From IMG/VR virus record IMGVR_UViG_3300025815_000157, positions 1 through 20,375 of that record: a stretch of 20,375 nucleotides of DNA; one strand, written 5' to 3'. The notes below the pieces were generated by a model, which worked only from the letters and a program-made list of their open reading frames with translations, was not told where the DNA came from and ran no database searches. Source of the stretch: a virus. Each line of letters opens with the position of its first letter. Positions within the stretch are counted from its first letter, which is position 1. Both the position numbers and the translations under genes were made by a program. Positions 2,634-9,760 of the stretch are shown here, piece after piece.

Positions 2634-4488
2634 TCAAAGACCGTTTGGTGATGAGATTGAAGGCTTATCACAGATGGTCACATCAGACGTTTCAGACGTT
2701 GTAGAGACTATGATACCCCATCTGATGAGGACGTTTACCCAAGGTAAGTACGTTGCCAAATTCACCGCTACAGATTCAAGATTCGATCAAGAGGCAGAAG
2801 ATAAAACCGAGTACTGCCAGTGGGTTTTTGCTAATCAACACAAAGGCAACACCATACTATATAACATGTTTAAAGATGCCCTACTCCAATACACAGGAGT
2901 GGTAAAAGTATTTTGGGATGACTCAGAAGAAATAGAGGCAGATGAGTATAATAATCTAGATGATATGGAAGTTATGCGGCTCAAGATGGAGCCAAAGTTC
3001 AGGATTACAAAGGCTAGAAAGAACAAGGACGGTCTTACAGATGTTGAGGGTGAATGGGTAGAATCAACTGGACGCCCAAAGATTGAGAATATCCCACCCG
3101 ATGAGCTTCTAATAGCACGTAGAGCGAGAGATTTTGAAGAACCCCCATTCATAGGCCAAAGATCACCTAAAACCCGTTCTGAGCTAATTCAAATGGGTTT
3201 CAGCAAGGAACAAGTAAAATCACTAGGAAAAGATGAAGAACTAGACAACGAGGTAAAGCTAGCTAGGAATTACGATTTAGAAGAAGACTATGAATCAAAC
3301 CCAACTAATGACAGTTCAAAAGATGTAATTTATTTGGGTGAATATTATGTCTACATGGATGCTGATGAGGACGGTATCAGCGAGCTGTGGCAGGTCTTCT
3401 ACGCTGGCAACCAGGTACTAGAAAAAAGGCGTGTTGATGACCATCCTTTCTGTGTGATGGTTCCCGTTCCAATGCCACACAAGGCTATCGGGACATGTCC
3501 AGCAGACCAAGTAGCAGACATTCAATACTTAAAGTCTCACCTACTTAGACAAATGCTGAACAACATATACGCTTCAAACTTCAATAGAATGGTTGTGAAT
3601 GACCGTGTTCAACTGGACGACCTTCTAACGCCTAGACCTGGTGGTGTTGTGAGAGTTGATGGGAGTGGGCCAATTGGTGATTCACTTATGCCTATCCCAA
3701 CTGACAACCAGACACCGCAAATACTCCAAGCAATAGAATACTCGGACACAATGAGAGAGGTTCGCTCAGGGGTTACAAGGTATTCTCAAGGCGTAGATAC
3801 GGAGATTCTTAACAAGACAGCAGTAGCCTTTGTGGGACAGAGGGACGCGGCTCAGATGCGTGTTGAGACTGTTGCTAGACTTGCTGCAGATGGTGCAATA
3901 AGAGAAATATTCGAAAAGATTGCTGCTCTTGCTTCAAAGTATCAAGATGAATCTATCCAAATCCGATTATTCGGTGAAACCAAAGTCATTGACCCTGCAG
4001 AGTGGAAGCATAAAACCTATTGCACTATTGATGTTGGAGTGGGTTCTGGAGATAGACAAGAGAAAGTCGCCAACATTGGTTATCTAATATCTGAGATTAA
4101 GTCGGCCATGGAATTAGGGTTACCCCTTGCTGACAGCAAGAAGTTATACAACGCTTATTCACAGCTAGTTAAAGAGGTGGGCCTTAAAGAGATTGAGTTG
4201 TATTTTAATGACCCCGAAGTACCTCAGCAGTTACTCATAGCTGAGATTGAGAGACTCACTAGAGAAAATCAGGCCATGCAGCAAAATATGCAAAACCCGC
4301 TGGCCGAAGCTGAAGCAATTAAACAAGAAGCTACTACTCAGAGAGAAATAGCGAAGATTCGTGAAAAGGCCATGGTTGACCAAGCCAAACTTATACAAGA
4401 TCAGATGCAGCACGATGACAAGATTGCTGCCGAACTTACAAAGATTGAAGCAGACACGAATAAAAATGTGCCAGGGGCATTGATTTGA
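2515..4488 (+). CDS. Portal protein (P22 gp1-like)
   Basis: The portal forms the dodecameric ring at one capsid vertex through which DNA enters and leaves. The 657-residue length, the position between terL and scaffold, and the N-terminal pattern LLDYYNQRPFGDE followed by TSDVSDVVETMIPHLMR fit the large P22-type portals. Residues ~575-650 form a long Gln/Glu/Lys-rich helix, as in portal barrels. The longest frame starts at TTG 2515, without a strong ribosome-binding site. ATG 2563 (residue 17), behind an AGGAG, is an alternative giving 641 aa. I keep the TTG because the extra residues look like portal helix. It overlaps the next gene by 4 bp. Confidence 0.9.
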   Translation: MKTDQEIAQIVGAEERMALGFLGEGSKINSNRKTLLDYYNQRPFGDEIEGLSQMVTSDVSDVVETMIPHLMRTFTQGKYVAKFTATDSRFDQEAEDKTEYCQWVFANQHKGNTILYNMFKDALLQYTGVVKVFWDDSEEIEADEYNNLDDMEVMRLKMEPKFRITKARKNKDGLTDVEGEWVESTGRPKIENIPPDELLIARRARDFEEPPFIGQRSPKTRSELIQMGFSKEQVKSLGKDEELDNEVKLARNYDLEEDYESNPTNDSSKDVIYLGEYYVYMDADEDGISELWQVFYAGNQVLEKRRVDDHPFCVMVPVPMPHKAIGTCPADQVADIQYLKSHLLRQMLNNIYASNFNRMVVNDRVQLDDLLTPRPGGVVRVDGSGPIGDSLMPIPTDNQTPQILQAIEYSDTMREVRSGVTRYSQGVDTEILNKTAVAFVGQRDAAQMRVETVARLAADGAIREIFEKIAALASKYQDESIQIRLFGETKVIDPAEWKHKTYCTIDVGVGSGDRQEKVANIGYLISEIKSAMELGLPLADSKKLYNAYSQLVKEVGLKEIELYFNDPEVPQQLLIAEIERLTRENQAMQQNMQNPLAEAEAIKQEATTQREIAKIREKAMVDQAKLIQDQMQHDDKIAAELTKIEADTNKNVPGALI

Positions 4489-5615: not shown

Positions 5616-5681
5616 ATGACAGTCCCAACTAATACAGTTATTACCTATTCTACGGTGGGTAATCGTGAAGATTTAATGGAT
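5616..5681 (+). other. Major capsid gene exon 1
   Basis: This 66-nt exon (22 codons, MTVPTNTVITYSTVG then NREDLMD) ends in GGAU, the sequence that forms the P1 helix with the intron guide. The last U pairs with a G, as required at a group I 5' splice site. Without splicing it would yield only a 22-residue peptide because TGA follows at once. Confidence 0.85.
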
Positions 5682-6944
5682 TGACACAAAGTACAACATA
5701 TCGTTATACTTTCAAGTCCCAAAAGATGCTTTAGGACAAAAGTATGACATTTACGATAACTAAAGAAGAGTTGCTCTTTGTGGTAAATGTCATAGAGCAA
5801 GGCACTTTTGAAAACTGGGTGAATTCAGGGAAAGCCCTAACGTAAAGACGAGGGTAATCCTGAGCCAAGCCAAGATGGGTTTTAGTATCTTGGAAGGTGC
5901 AACGACTAGGCGGTGAGTCCCAACAATAACCCGCCCACGAGCGCCCAGCACTGGCCTAACAGTGATGATATAGTCTGAGCTGCATGGAAACATGTAGAAG
6001 TGGCAATTAAAAAATCCACGATAACAATACTGATGATTTACGATATTAGTCCGTTAGATACTCCTTTCTTAAACGGTGTAGGCCGTGGTTCTGCTTCTGC
6101 AGTTCTTAGCGAATGGCAAACAGATACCCTTGATGCAGCAGCTAGTAACATTGCAATTGAGGGTGATAACCCAACAGCTAAAACTCTTAGTCCTACTACA
6201 CGAGTTGCTAACTACTGCCAAATCTCGCAAAAAACGGCTATTGTTTCTGGTACTGCTAGAGCAATTGATCAAGCAGGTAGATCTGATGAATTAGCCTACC
6301 AAGTAGCAAAACGCGGTAAAGAGATCAAGCGTGATATGGAGTTTGCCCTTACCCAGAATCAAGCAGCTTCGGCTGGTGGTGCTGGTACAGGTCGCGCTCT
6401 TGCTTCTCTTGAGTCGTGGTTATCTACTAATAAAACATCTTTAGGTACAGGTACAGCTCAAACCACTCCTGGCGCGGCTGGTTCTCCATCAATCCCAACT
6501 ACAGCACCAACTGATTCAACGGTGGCAGGTACATTTACCAAAGCCTCATTAGATGACGTTATTCAAAAGTGCTGGACTCAGGGCGGAGACCCCACAACTA
6601 TCATGGTTGGCCCTTTCAACCGTGCTATTGTGAGCGGTTTTAGTGGTATCTCTACACTTGAAACACCAGCTAGTGCTGGTTCTGACATTACGTTGATTGG
6701 CGCGGTAGACTTTTATAAGTCAAACTTTGGAACTTTAAAAGTAGTTCCTAACCGTTTCCAACGAGACCAGACTGCTTTTGTTTTAGATATGGATTATTGG
6801 TCTGTTAATTACTTGCGACCAATGGAGCTTAACGAACTGGCGAAAACTGGAGACAGTGAACAACGCCAGATGATCGTTGAGTATACTCTGTGTTCTAAGA
6901 ATGAAGCGAGTTCAGGTAAGGTGACAGATTTAACCACATCGTAA
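5616..6944 (+). CDS. Major capsid protein, intron-split: join(5616..5681,6033..6944)
   Basis: Exon 1 starts at ATG 5616, behind GAGGA (5604-5608), and encodes 22 residues ending VGNREDLMD. The frame then meets TGA at 5682. Exon 2 resumes at 6033 with MIYDISPLDTPFLNG and runs to the TAA at 6942-6944. The joined CDS is 978 nt (325 aa). The restored stretch REDLMD/MIYDISPLDTPF matches, as I remember it, the conserved N-terminus of SU10/DUF5309-type HK97-fold capsid proteins (REDLxDxIxxISPxxTPF). Residues around 150-175 form a Ser/Thr/Pro/Ala-rich loop. Codons ending in T are frequent here, as in highly expressed genes. A GTG at 6000 opens the same frame as exon 2, but the 11 residues before 6033 are intron sequence. 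Confidence 0.88.
5682..6032 (+). ncRNA. Group I self-splicing intron (ORF-less, group IA-like) in the capsid gene
   Basis: All core helices can be paired by eye. P1: exon GGAU 5678-5681 with guide GUCC 5716-5719 (U.G at the splice site), extended by AAAGUA 5688-5693/UACUUU 5707-5712. P2: a perfect 12-bp stem 5743-5754/5783-5794. P3: CUGGGUG 5815-5821/CGCCCAG 5942-5948. P4: UUCAGG 5824-5829/CCUGAG 5859-5864. P5: GCCCU 5834-5838/AGGGU 5851-5855. P6 region: GCC/GGU plus CCAAGAU 5870-5876/AUCUUGG 5887-5893. P7: GACUA 5904-5908/UAGUC 5971-5975. P8: CACUG 5949-5953/CAGUG 5960-5964. P9: CUGCAUG/CAUGUAG around a GAAA loop, 5980-5997. The segment between P7 and P3 (5909-5941) holds a GGCGG/CCGCC hairpin, a P7.1-like element that points to group IA. 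The last base is G6032. No homing endonuclease ORF fits in 351 nt. Confidence 0.92.
6033..6944 (+). other. Major capsid gene exon 2
   Basis: This 912-nt exon carries 303 codons plus the stop. The start at 6033 is preferred to an in-frame alternative at 6036 for two reasons. It gives the spacing D-x-I before ISP seen in the family, and exon bases UGA 6034-6036 can form P10 with UCA 5712-5714 of the guide. Both choices keep the frame and differ by a single methionine. Confidence 0.8.
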
Positions 6945-6987: not shown

Positions 6988-7311
6988 ATGGCTAAAATAC
7001 TGAATTACGACCCGCAAACGGGTATCACAGATTACTTTGAGGGTGATGGTAAAGGTGGTTTTACTATCCATTCATCACAAGACACTCGGAACATTATTAA
7101 GCACAACAAAGAACGACAGAATAACGACGAATACAAACGCGCAGGGATAAAGTCAGATCATTACCATTTTGCTCGTGTTCCTAATATCGTATTAATGGAA
7201 TGGAAGCGAAAATATAATATCGACTGGAACAGGAAAGAAGACCTACCCAGAATTGAAAAGCTTCTCAACTCGCCAGACTACAAGTATCTAAGGACAGTAT
7301 CTAAAATATGA
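6988..7311 (+). CDS. Conserved phage protein downstream of the capsid gene, 107 aa
   Basis: GAGG at 6981-6984 precedes ATG 6988. The 107-residue soluble protein contains NYDPQTGITDYFEGD at the start, an HNKERQNNDEYKR segment, and ends ...LPRIEKLLNSPDYKYLRTVSKI. This ending (LLNxPDYKYLRT) recurs in small proteins found next to capsid genes in podoviruses. Its function is not known to me. A head-completion or capsid-associated role would fit the position, but no motif shows it. It overlaps the next ATG by 4 bp. Confidence 0.8.
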   Translation: MAKILNYDPQTGITDYFEGDGKGGFTIHSSQDTRNIIKHNKERQNNDEYKRAGIKSDHYHFARVPNIVLMEWKRKYNIDWNRKEDLPRIEKLLNSPDYKYLRTVSKI

Positions 7312-8690
7312 TGGAACGTGTTAGAGAAGCTAAAAGCATAGCTTCAAGCAATCCAGAATTAGCTTTAAGTATTTGCAACGAAGTTCTGAATGAAGAGCCA
7401 GAGACAGAATCCGGAGAGCTGGCCCTATTTCTAACAGGTTATATTCTTTTGGATTCTGGAAAAGATGGTTTGGCCTATCACGTTTTTAGACGGTGTGCAG
7501 AAATGAGACCCAACCGTTCAGAAATTTGGTCTAATATGGGAATGGCAATAGAAAATATTGACCGAGATAAAGCCCTTAAAATATTCGACAAGGCACTAGA
7601 AAAAGACTCGTCTAACGCTTCAGCACTTGCCAACAAAGGCTTGATGTATCTTCAAACGGGCAGACCTCAACGAGCCATTGAATACAGCAACCGAGCATTA
7701 AAGATTGACCCTAATTTAAACTCAGCTTTACATAATCGCGGTTTAGCTAAACTCATGTTAAGAGACTGGTCAGGGTGGGATGAGTATTACATGACACAAG
7801 GCGTTAAAGAGCGCGTTAAAAGAGACTACGGTGTTCCCGAGTGGGAAGGCCAAGAAGGCACAGTGGTGGTGTATGGGGAACAGGGAGTGGGCGACGAGAT
7901 CATGTTCGCTACCTGTGTTCCTGATTTATTGGAAACAAATAATGTAATTTTAGAAGTAGACAAAAGAACGCATTCAATATTTGACCGTTCATTTTCTTGC
8001 CCTGTATACGGAAATAGGTTCTCAGACCATAGCCCATTGGTGGATGAACATAAGTTCGACTATCAAATCTCAATGGGGCAATTACCCTATTTCTTTAGGC
8101 GCGACCATAAGTCATTCCCAGGCAACCCAATTCTAACCCCAGACCCAGAAAGGGTTAAGCAGTGGTCATCATTGTTAGACGGTGATAAACCCGTGGTAGG
8201 ATTCTCTATGATGGGTGGCTCTAAAGAAACGGGCATGAAGTATAGAACCACTACCCTTGAGACATTCTTACCACTTACAGAAAATTACCAGTTAGTTTGC
8301 TTAGACTACAAAGAAGTAGATGCCAAGGAATTAGAAAAATACGGCATTAAATACTGGCCCAGATCAGTTAAAAAGGGTTCAGACCTTGAAGAACTATTAG
8401 CCCTTGTTTCCTGCCTGGATGCCGTTGTTACAGTGTGTAATACGGTGGTCTATTTCGCTGGTGCTGTTGGTGTTCCTTGTCATGTATTAGTACCAGAGTA
8501 CGCTGGTTATAGATACCATTCAGAAGGTGAGTCATTCCCATGGTTCAATTCTGTTAAGCTCCATAGGGGAGACTTTAAACGCTCAGTTAAGGATATTAAT
8601 GAGAATATTTATAGGATTCGACAAAAGGGAAACGGTAGCCTATCACGTTCTATGCAACAGTATAATGAGGCATTCATCGAGGCCGTGTGA
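7308..8690 (+). CDS. TPR-repeat protein fused to a GT9-like glycosyltransferase
   Basis: The 460-residue protein has two parts. Residues ~1-140 hold tetratricopeptide repeats; the clearest are ~71-104 and ~105-138 (ALANKGLMYLQTGRPQRAIE, ALKIDPN). Residues ~180-430 resemble the heptosyltransferase-type (GT-B) fold, with a phosphate-loop-like GEQGVGDEIMF at ~190-200 and a C-terminal sugar-nucleotide region VVTVCNTVVYFAGAVGVPC. Such TPR-glycosyltransferases occur in bacteria and in marine phages. The acceptor is unknown; a virion protein, cell-surface glycan or host protein are all possible. The last 30 codons overlap the next glycosyltransferase. It has no strong start site (AAGGA 13 bp upstream) and is coupled by ATGATG to the upstream stop. 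Confidence 0.85.
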   Translation: MMERVREAKSIASSNPELALSICNEVLNEEPETESGELALFLTGYILLDSGKDGLAYHVFRRCAEMRPNRSEIWSNMGMAIENIDRDKALKIFDKALEKDSSNASALANKGLMYLQTGRPQRAIEYSNRALKIDPNLNSALHNRGLAKLMLRDWSGWDEYYMTQGVKERVKRDYGVPEWEGQEGTVVVYGEQGVGDEIMFATCVPDLLETNNVILEVDKRTHSIFDRSFSCPVYGNRFSDHSPLVDEHKFDYQISMGQLPYFFRRDHKSFPGNPILTPDPERVKQWSSLLDGDKPVVGFSMMGGSKETGMKYRTTTLETFLPLTENYQLVCLDYKEVDAKELEKYGIKYWPRSVKKGSDLEELLALVSCLDAVVTVCNTVVYFAGAVGVPCHVLVPEYAGYRYHSEGESFPWFNSVKLHRGDFKRSVKDINENIYRIRQKGNGSLSRSMQQYNEAFIEAV

Positions 8691-9255
8691 GTTCATACCA
8701 ATTAATAAACGTAACATTCCAGAGTTCACAAGGGGGATAGAGGACGGTAGCACAGAGTTCTCATTTTCAAGATTCTTGACGCCCTACCTCGCTGGCTATA
8801 AGGGAATCGCCCTATTCATGGATTGTGATATGCTGGTCAGGTGTGACATTCACGAGTTACTAGATTATATGTCACTTACTGATGATGTAGCAGTGGTTAA
8901 GCATGACTACAAATCAAAGGTTAAAACCAAGTTTCTAGGCAATGTTCAGCACGAATACCCTATGAAAAACTGGTCAAGCCTAATTCTATTTAATTGCTAC
9001 CGACAGCCAGTAAAAAACCTTACTCCTGAAGTTGTGAATAATGCCAGCGGCAAATACCTGCACAGGTTTGAGTGGTGCACCAATATTGGTGAGATACCAA
9101 AAGAATACAACCACCTAGTCGGAGAATACGACCCAAACCCAAACGCAAAGATTGTCCATTTTACTTTAGGGACTCCATGTTTTCAGGGTTATGCAGACCA
9201 GGAGTTTGCTAGAGAATGGAGAAACGAGCTAAGGCTGGCCACTCATGCTGATTAG
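8599..9255 (+). CDS. DxD-type glycosyltransferase, 218 aa
   Basis: I choose ATG 8599 because AAGGA (8589-8593) lies 5 bp upstream and the protein then begins MRIFIGFDKRETVAYHV, the canonical start of these small enzymes. A longer frame from 8527 adds 24 unrelated residues. The motif FMDCDMLVRCD places a metal and sugar-nucleotide binding DxD at residues 75-77, as in GT-A fold glycosyltransferases. Donor and acceptor are unknown. It overlaps the upstream glycosyltransferase by 92 bp and the downstream methyltransferase by 11 bp, so the three probably work as a unit. Related genes are seen in marine phages. Confidence 0.85.
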   Translation: MRIFIGFDKRETVAYHVLCNSIMRHSSRPCEFIPINKRNIPEFTRGIEDGSTEFSFSRFLTPYLAGYKGIALFMDCDMLVRCDIHELLDYMSLTDDVAVVKHDYKSKVKTKFLGNVQHEYPMKNWSSLILFNCYRQPVKNLTPEVVNNASGKYLHRFEWCTNIGEIPKEYNHLVGEYDPNPNAKIVHFTLGTPCFQGYADQEFAREWRNELRLATHAD

Positions 9256-9760
9256 TGAAAAATACAGAGAAGAACAAGAAAAGCTACACGAAAACCCTAA
9301 TTATGGGGTGGCTTCGGTTCAATTTGCTCCTTTAGTAACAAACATTATCAACACCTTGAACATTGAAGAAATGCTCGACTACGGAGCAGGAAAAGGCAGG
9401 CTAGCTCAGAATATTAACCCTAACCACAAGGTTAAAATAGAGTTATACGACCCTGCCCGCCCAGAATGGTCTGAGACACCAAACCCCAGACAGTTTGTTA
9501 CCTGCATTGACGTACTAGAACATATTGAACCTGAGTTATTAGATAACGTCCTAGACGACTTAAAAAGAGTCACAAAAGAGTTTGGGTTTTTTACTATCCA
9601 CACAGGCCCAGCAGTCAAAGTCCTTTCGGACGGTAGAAACGCTCACCTCATTCAAGAAGATTTCAGATGGTGGCTTCCTAAAATTTGGGAACGGTTCGAC
9701 ATTCATTCCTATTCACAAACCCCAGGCGGGTTTTACGTGGTGGTTAAAGCATGGCCTTAA
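9245..9760 (+). CDS. Class I SAM-dependent methyltransferase, 171 aa
   Basis: Motif I, the SAM-binding loop, is DYGAGKG at residues 45-51. An acidic segment ELYDPA follows strand 2, and the post-motif CIDVLEH sits at 87-93. This is the Methyltransf_11/25 Rossmann layout. The tail NAHLIQEDFRWWLPK is shared by small phage methyltransferases that I associate with glycosyltransferase neighbours. The acceptor is probably a sugar, lipid or peptide rather than DNA, because no DNA methyltransferase motif (such as DPPY) is present. It overlaps the upstream gene by 11 bp and the downstream adaptor gene by 10 bp. Position within a structural operon suggests virion or glycan modification. Confidence 0.85.
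   Translation: MLISEKYREEQEKLHENPNYGVASVQFAPLVTNIINTLNIEEMLDYGAGKGRLAQNINPNHKVKIELYDPARPEWSETPNPRQFVTCIDVLEHIEPELLDNVLDDLKRVTKEFGFFTIHTGPAVKVLSDGRNAHLIQEDFRWWLPKIWERFDIHSYSQTPGGFYVVVKAWP

Follow-up and report, generated by a model that had tools for sequence, protein, structure and literature searches.

A group I intron in an SU10-type major capsid gene of an uncultured phage and related introns at three neighbouring sites

The major capsid gene in the viral DNA analysed here is interrupted by a group I intron which, in all likelihood, splices itself out of the capsid transcript and descends from a homing intron whose HNH endonuclease gene has been lost. The window, by which we mean the whole stretch of DNA that was analysed, is a virus record of 20,375 bases with genes for a terminase, an SU10-type portal protein and an SU10-type major capsid protein. 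The capsid frame starts at ATG 5616 and runs for 22 codons to GAT 5681 (...REDLMD), where it is closed by TGA 5682, and it reopens at ATG 6033. The parts of the gene are arranged as follows.

About 5604, plus strand: ribosome-binding site GAGGA, upstream of the exon 1 ATG 5616
5616-5681, plus strand: exon 1 of the major capsid gene, MTVPTNTVITYSTVGNREDLMD; intron-free relatives have this N-terminus joined directly to exon 2
5682-6032, plus strand: group I intron of 351 nt (RF00028 match, exact empty-site match, fold), opening with the in-frame TGA and ending in G
6000-6032, plus strand: false start at GTG 6000, 11 residues MAIKKSTITIL, overlapping a P9.2-like hairpin and the intron end
6033-6944, plus strand: exon 2 of the major capsid gene, SU10_MCP PF17236 (3.6e-89)

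Further downstream, the interval between capsid and tail genes (7308-9760) has an unusual content for its place in the genome: a TPR protein, an open reading frame that shares 164 nt with the TPR end, and a methyltransferase.

Boundaries and fold of the intron

When the window was scanned against Rfam, the sole match was to RF00028 (Intron_gpI), which covered positions 5736-5997 over the full length of the model (1-253) with 92 bits (E 8.5e-23), the gathering cut-off being 50 bits. In three intron-free relatives with 77-82% capsid identity (L005, L007 and L008), the same codons are joined directly to give a gapless REDLMD/MIYDISP. Shifting the junction by one base in either direction destroyed the match to these empty sites, and the boundaries 5682-6032 are therefore unique. 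Furthermore, the intron is preceded by a U that pairs with a G of the guide and its last base is a G, as is required of group I introns. At the level of sequence, it is thus confirmed that bases 5682-6032 are a group I intron within an SU10-type major capsid gene.

The spliced protein of 325 residues matched the PF17236 profile from profile position 4 onward (2.5e-93, 313 bits), which places it among the SU10-type major capsid proteins, whereas the form starting at GTG 6000 matched from position 17 (300 bits). As the first-pass annotation had warned, a gene caller that chooses GTG 6000 would add 11 false, intron-coded residues and lose the true N-terminus. The same loss in other intron-split capsid genes affects capsid phylogenies and structure predictions drawn from metagenomes.

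Unconstrained folding of positions 5660-6050 recovered P1, P2, P3, P4, P5, P6, P7.1, P8 and P9. The fold lay 4.87 standard deviations below shuffled sequences (z -4.87), and 0 of 100 shuffles equalled the real sequence. The main elements are listed here with the evidence for each.

5688-5693 with 5707-5712, plus strand: P1 extension (fold)
5716-5719, plus strand: internal guide sequence GUCC, which pairs with GGAU of exon 1 (5678-5681), with U.G at the splice site
5743-5794, plus strand: P2, a perfect 12-bp stem (5743-5754 with 5783-5794)
5815-5821 with 5942-5948, plus strand: P3, CUGGGUG with CGCCCAG, enclosing P4, P5, P6, the P7 5' strand and P7.1
5904-5908, plus strand: P7 5' strand GACUA (RF00028, fold, covariation)
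5909-5913 with 5931-5935, plus strand: P7.1, GGCGG with CCGCC (RF00028, fold, covariation)
5949-5964, plus strand: P8 (RF00028, covariation)
5971-5975, plus strand: P7 3' strand UAGUC (RF00028, covariation alignment)
5980-5997, plus strand: P9 (RF00028, covariation)

In an alignment of 12 intron cores, 27 of the 43 consensus pairs displayed a compensatory double change in at least one sequence. These changes fell in P3, P4, P5, P6, P7.1, P8, P9 and the last hairpin, while the P7 pairing GACUA/UAGUC was invariant in all 12 cores. The window intron contains the P3-P8 core with a G-binding P7 by which group I membership is recognised, and of the P7.1/P7.2 elements that mark subgroup IA between P7 and P3 it has one stem, P7.1, which covaries. 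The guide pairing is only 4 bp long, a length attainable by chance. Since a four-base match is expected to occur about once per intron by chance, the case for P1 is that exon and guide have changed jointly, and not the match alone: most introns at the window's insertion site have GGAU/GUCC, and L123, L145 and L146 have GCGAAU/GUUCGC. The P10 contact between the guide region and exon 2 is weak in the window, with 3 bp (+2 to +4), which is likewise a length that chance can provide.

The first-pass annotation had proposed a group I intron with these ends in the major capsid gene, an exact restoration of the REDLMD join by splicing, and a fold with U.G in P1, a perfect 12-bp P2, a P7.1-like hairpin and a terminal G. 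All of this was borne out at the level of sequence, also by the two checks it had named that were run: scoring against RF00028 and a search for intron-free homologues at the site.

Related introns, HNH genes and probable homing history

A search with exon 2 returned 80 loci, in 75 of which the 5' end of the gene was visible. The capsid gene was uninterrupted in 67 of the 75, four were near-copies of the window with an identical intron, and the remaining four (L020, L022, L026 and L034) were interrupted a few codons downstream, directly behind the IAP motif. Many more loci emerged when the viral collection was scanned with two patterns that place exon 2 directly behind a group I 3' end. In total, 27 introns of uncultured phages were delimited, representing 13 distinct intron/capsid types at three sites (a slash marks the insertion point).

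Site A, REDLx[DN]/xIYDISP: the window, L085/L112, L095, L086, L107, L111, L123/L145
Site B, Ix[AS]P/[TE]ETPF, 21 nt after A: L020, L160, L034
Site C, IxSPT/ETPF, 24 nt after A: L149/L165, L157, L163

Exon 1 ended in U, the intron ended in G and the protein motif of the family was restored in each of the 27. Thirteen loci of delimited introns scored above the Rfam cut-off; L020, L149, L160 and L163, in which an HNH gene runs through the core, scored below it. The occurrence of similar introns at the same point and at two nearby points in related phages argues that mobile elements of this well-known kind land repeatedly at the capsid N-terminal motif.

The long introns contain an HNH gene, with a PF01844 match in six of the six that were tested. 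At site A, this gene codes for 178-252 residues and lies ahead of the core, whereas the HNH type at sites B and C differs from it, has about 260 residues and reads through the core. The relatives of both types in isolated phages are distant. In L020 (5078-5997), L149, L160 and L163 the HNH gene traverses the P3-P7 catalytic core and continues into the P7.1 sequence, where a zf-FCS match was observed in L020. Since the site-B and site-C genes read through P3-P7, the ribozyme core also serves as coding sequence, and the peptide it encodes is conserved (NSG...NPEPS...EGVTTRGRAYRR).

Site-A introns exist with and without an HNH gene, and close relatives show empty sites. Those of L086, L107, L111, L123 and L145 share the insertion point, the gene and the core type of the window intron, but they carry intact HNH genes before the core, where the window intron has only a remnant. 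The contig of L107 also contains a match to Betaproteobacteria-1 (RF02932) at 3540-3658 with 95.8 bits, a possible hint to the host of this phage. The absence of an intact endonuclease gene from the window intron, in which the frame from ATG 5744 comprises 33 codons, had been noted in the first-pass annotation and held good; the endonuclease-free form is, however, probably secondary, as a likely HNH remnant sits at the position that the intact gene occupies in related introns of this site.

5744-5770, plus strand: possible HNH start remnant MTFTITKEE (sequence reading only; weak alone and not significant by itself)
5770-5811, plus strand: likely fossil of the HNH C-terminus, VALCGKCHRARHF and a stop (BLOSUM62 score 49), in a different frame from the possible start remnant

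The C-terminal remnant is short, and its score was attained in 3 of 4000 dinucleotide shuffles. Its frame, VALCGKCHRARHF and a stop just before P3, compares with VLCPKCHFSRHH and a stop in L086 and with LCSKCHWSRHY in L111, and its end point before P3 coincides with that of the HNH genes in L086 and L107, which are intact. The window intron therefore likely retains a fossil of an HNH gene (ALCGKCHRARHF and a stop), as judged by this resemblance. On this evidence, an endonuclease was most likely once present, and the intron probably lost its own mobility gene through internal deletion. Its ancestor would have been an HNH-carrying homing intron targeting this capsid site, and the deletion would have occurred in P2, leaving the remnant behind. 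A comparable event can be read from L149 and L165, whose capsid proteins are 99% identical: two blocks of the HNH gene are missing from the L165 intron, whose core has been kept, which amounts to deletion of the gene with retention of the ribozyme.

The window intron might instead splice and still be mobile, if its endonuclease acts in trans and comes from a free-standing gene or from a co-infecting phage. HNH introns of the same site do circulate in other phages, and introns are patchily distributed on the capsid tree. However, the four near-identical relatives of the window, in incomplete contigs of up to 26.9 kb, contained no HNH match, and no recent transfer is visible because the nearest intron-free relatives that were found are only about 67-72% identical to the window in DNA. 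We therefore regard continued mobility as rather unlikely and favour an intron that has lost its endonuclease.

On a capsid tree of 63 rows labelled none, A, B or C, the labels require 11 changes, and at least four changes for site A are forced by well-supported branches alone. L018, with an empty site, and L020, with a site-B intron and HNH gene, are 91-93% identical in DNA, and the intron lies exactly between the two aligned blocks. Such a distribution is what homing introns that are repeatedly gained and lost would be expected to leave. The window intron has mixed affinities: its core clusters with the site-B and site-C introns and is closest to that of L020, whose capsid protein is 67% identical, and its 3' end is 79% identical to the L020 intron over 99 nt, whereas its 5' half and HNH remnant resemble site A and are closest to L111. 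Since the core tree places it with introns of the neighbouring sites, descent at site A may be mixed with recombination, and a site-A/site-B mosaic is possible. A constraint uniting site A in the core tree was not rejected (AU p 0.125).

As a tentative suggestion, about which we have more doubt than confidence, the stretch REDLxD-xIYxIxPxETPF could be a battleground on which HNH enzymes of two types, encoded in group I introns at the three sites, cut the capsid genes of intron-free co-infecting phages, so that carriage of an intron would decide which capsid gene survives.

Proposed splicing of the capsid transcript

An in-frame TAA or TGA opens the site-A and site-B introns, and site-C introns have five sense codons before the stop. 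The lengths of the delimited introns occupy all three classes modulo 3, and the inserts are therefore not read through as protein. The td intron of phage T4 likewise has an in-frame stop at its opening, and a stop near the splice site helps splicing and keeps ribosomes off the core. By analogy, the in-frame stop of the capsid introns would keep ribosomes out of their cores. In the window, a ribosome starting at ATG 5616 would halt at the TGA that opens the intron, leaving the ribozyme ribosome-free; the RNA would fold, an external guanosine would attack the U.G splice site, and the exons would be joined as GAT/ATG to give the mRNA for the capsid protein. We infer that this takes place in the cell, and virion assembly can soundly be expected to depend on it. 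As hundreds of copies of the capsid protein are needed per particle, such an obligatory splicing step must be efficient.

It could be argued that the ribozyme is dead and that translation begins at the intronic GTG 6000, so that the capsid protein comes from exon 2 only; the frame is indeed open back to this codon and the length of the window intron is a multiple of 3. Yet exon 1 is conserved together with its ATG and ribosome-binding site, all of which would then be useless, the REDL before the site falls within the family profile and is present in nearly all relatives, the same-site L107 has a stop two codons upstream of exon 2, and the catalytic core is intact and covarying. This makes a dead ribozyme very improbable compared with a splicing intron. 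That the interruption reflects faulty sequencing or assembly, or decay of the capsid gene, is scarcely credible even for a metagenomic contig: four other contigs hold a mismatch-free copy of the intron and differ from the window at 1 to 69 bases where they overlap it, both exons are intact, and the match of the insert to RF00028 spans the full model.

Comparison with known systems

In a limited search of isolated phages, a close full-length match to the introns was not found. Among the 60 SU10 capsid matches listed, the site was crossed in one piece in all but two, of which one begins at the edge of its record and the other, Cronobacter phage GAP52, is in two pieces. GAP52, Salmonella phage SeKF_80 and Proteus phage Privateer were considered as intron carriers and rejected, as they have duplicated or frameshifted capsid genes instead. 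In GAP52 and SeKF_80, two capsid-like genes adjoin; for Privateer (L271 992-2454), a longer capsid form arising by frameshift is annotated, with support from mass spectrometry. Prophage copies were sought with a single intron-exon pattern in 84,980 genomes of bacteria and archaea, and no convincing SU10-type capsid stretch came up, which is weak evidence because the pattern is narrow.

Phage group I introns with P7.1-type cores are known from the DNA-metabolism genes td, nrdB and nrdD of T4. The window intron shares this type of core with all three and the opening in-frame stop with td, but it resides in a capsid gene. Group I introns are also numerous in the Jug phages, whose terminase and ribonucleotide reductase transcripts were seen to be spliced (PMC12363816).

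The capsid location, which the first-pass annotation had offered as the novelty, has precedents. A group I-type intron in the major capsid gene of mycobacteriophage LittleE was proven to splice by RT-PCR and N-terminal sequencing of the virion protein (PMC3706429, which also names the three T4 introns). LittleE resembles the window in having such an intron in a phage major capsid gene, but its capsid is of the HK97 type, and its 819-bp intron lies elsewhere in the gene, has a LAGLIDADG-like frame on the other strand and shows no visible relation to the SU10-type sites. Lactococcal phage Tuc2009, as cited in PMC3706429, likewise has a group I intron in its capsid gene and belongs to a different phage group. 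A limited search of the open literature found no description of introns in SU10-type capsid genes. Capsid introns as such being already published, what is new is the cluster of three intron sites within 24 nt of the conserved SU10 capsid N-terminal motif. This cluster is the part worth following: stages of the homing cycle, namely an empty site, an intron with its HNH gene and an intron with the gene deleted, sit side by side in related capsid genes, at three close points in an easily recognised gene.
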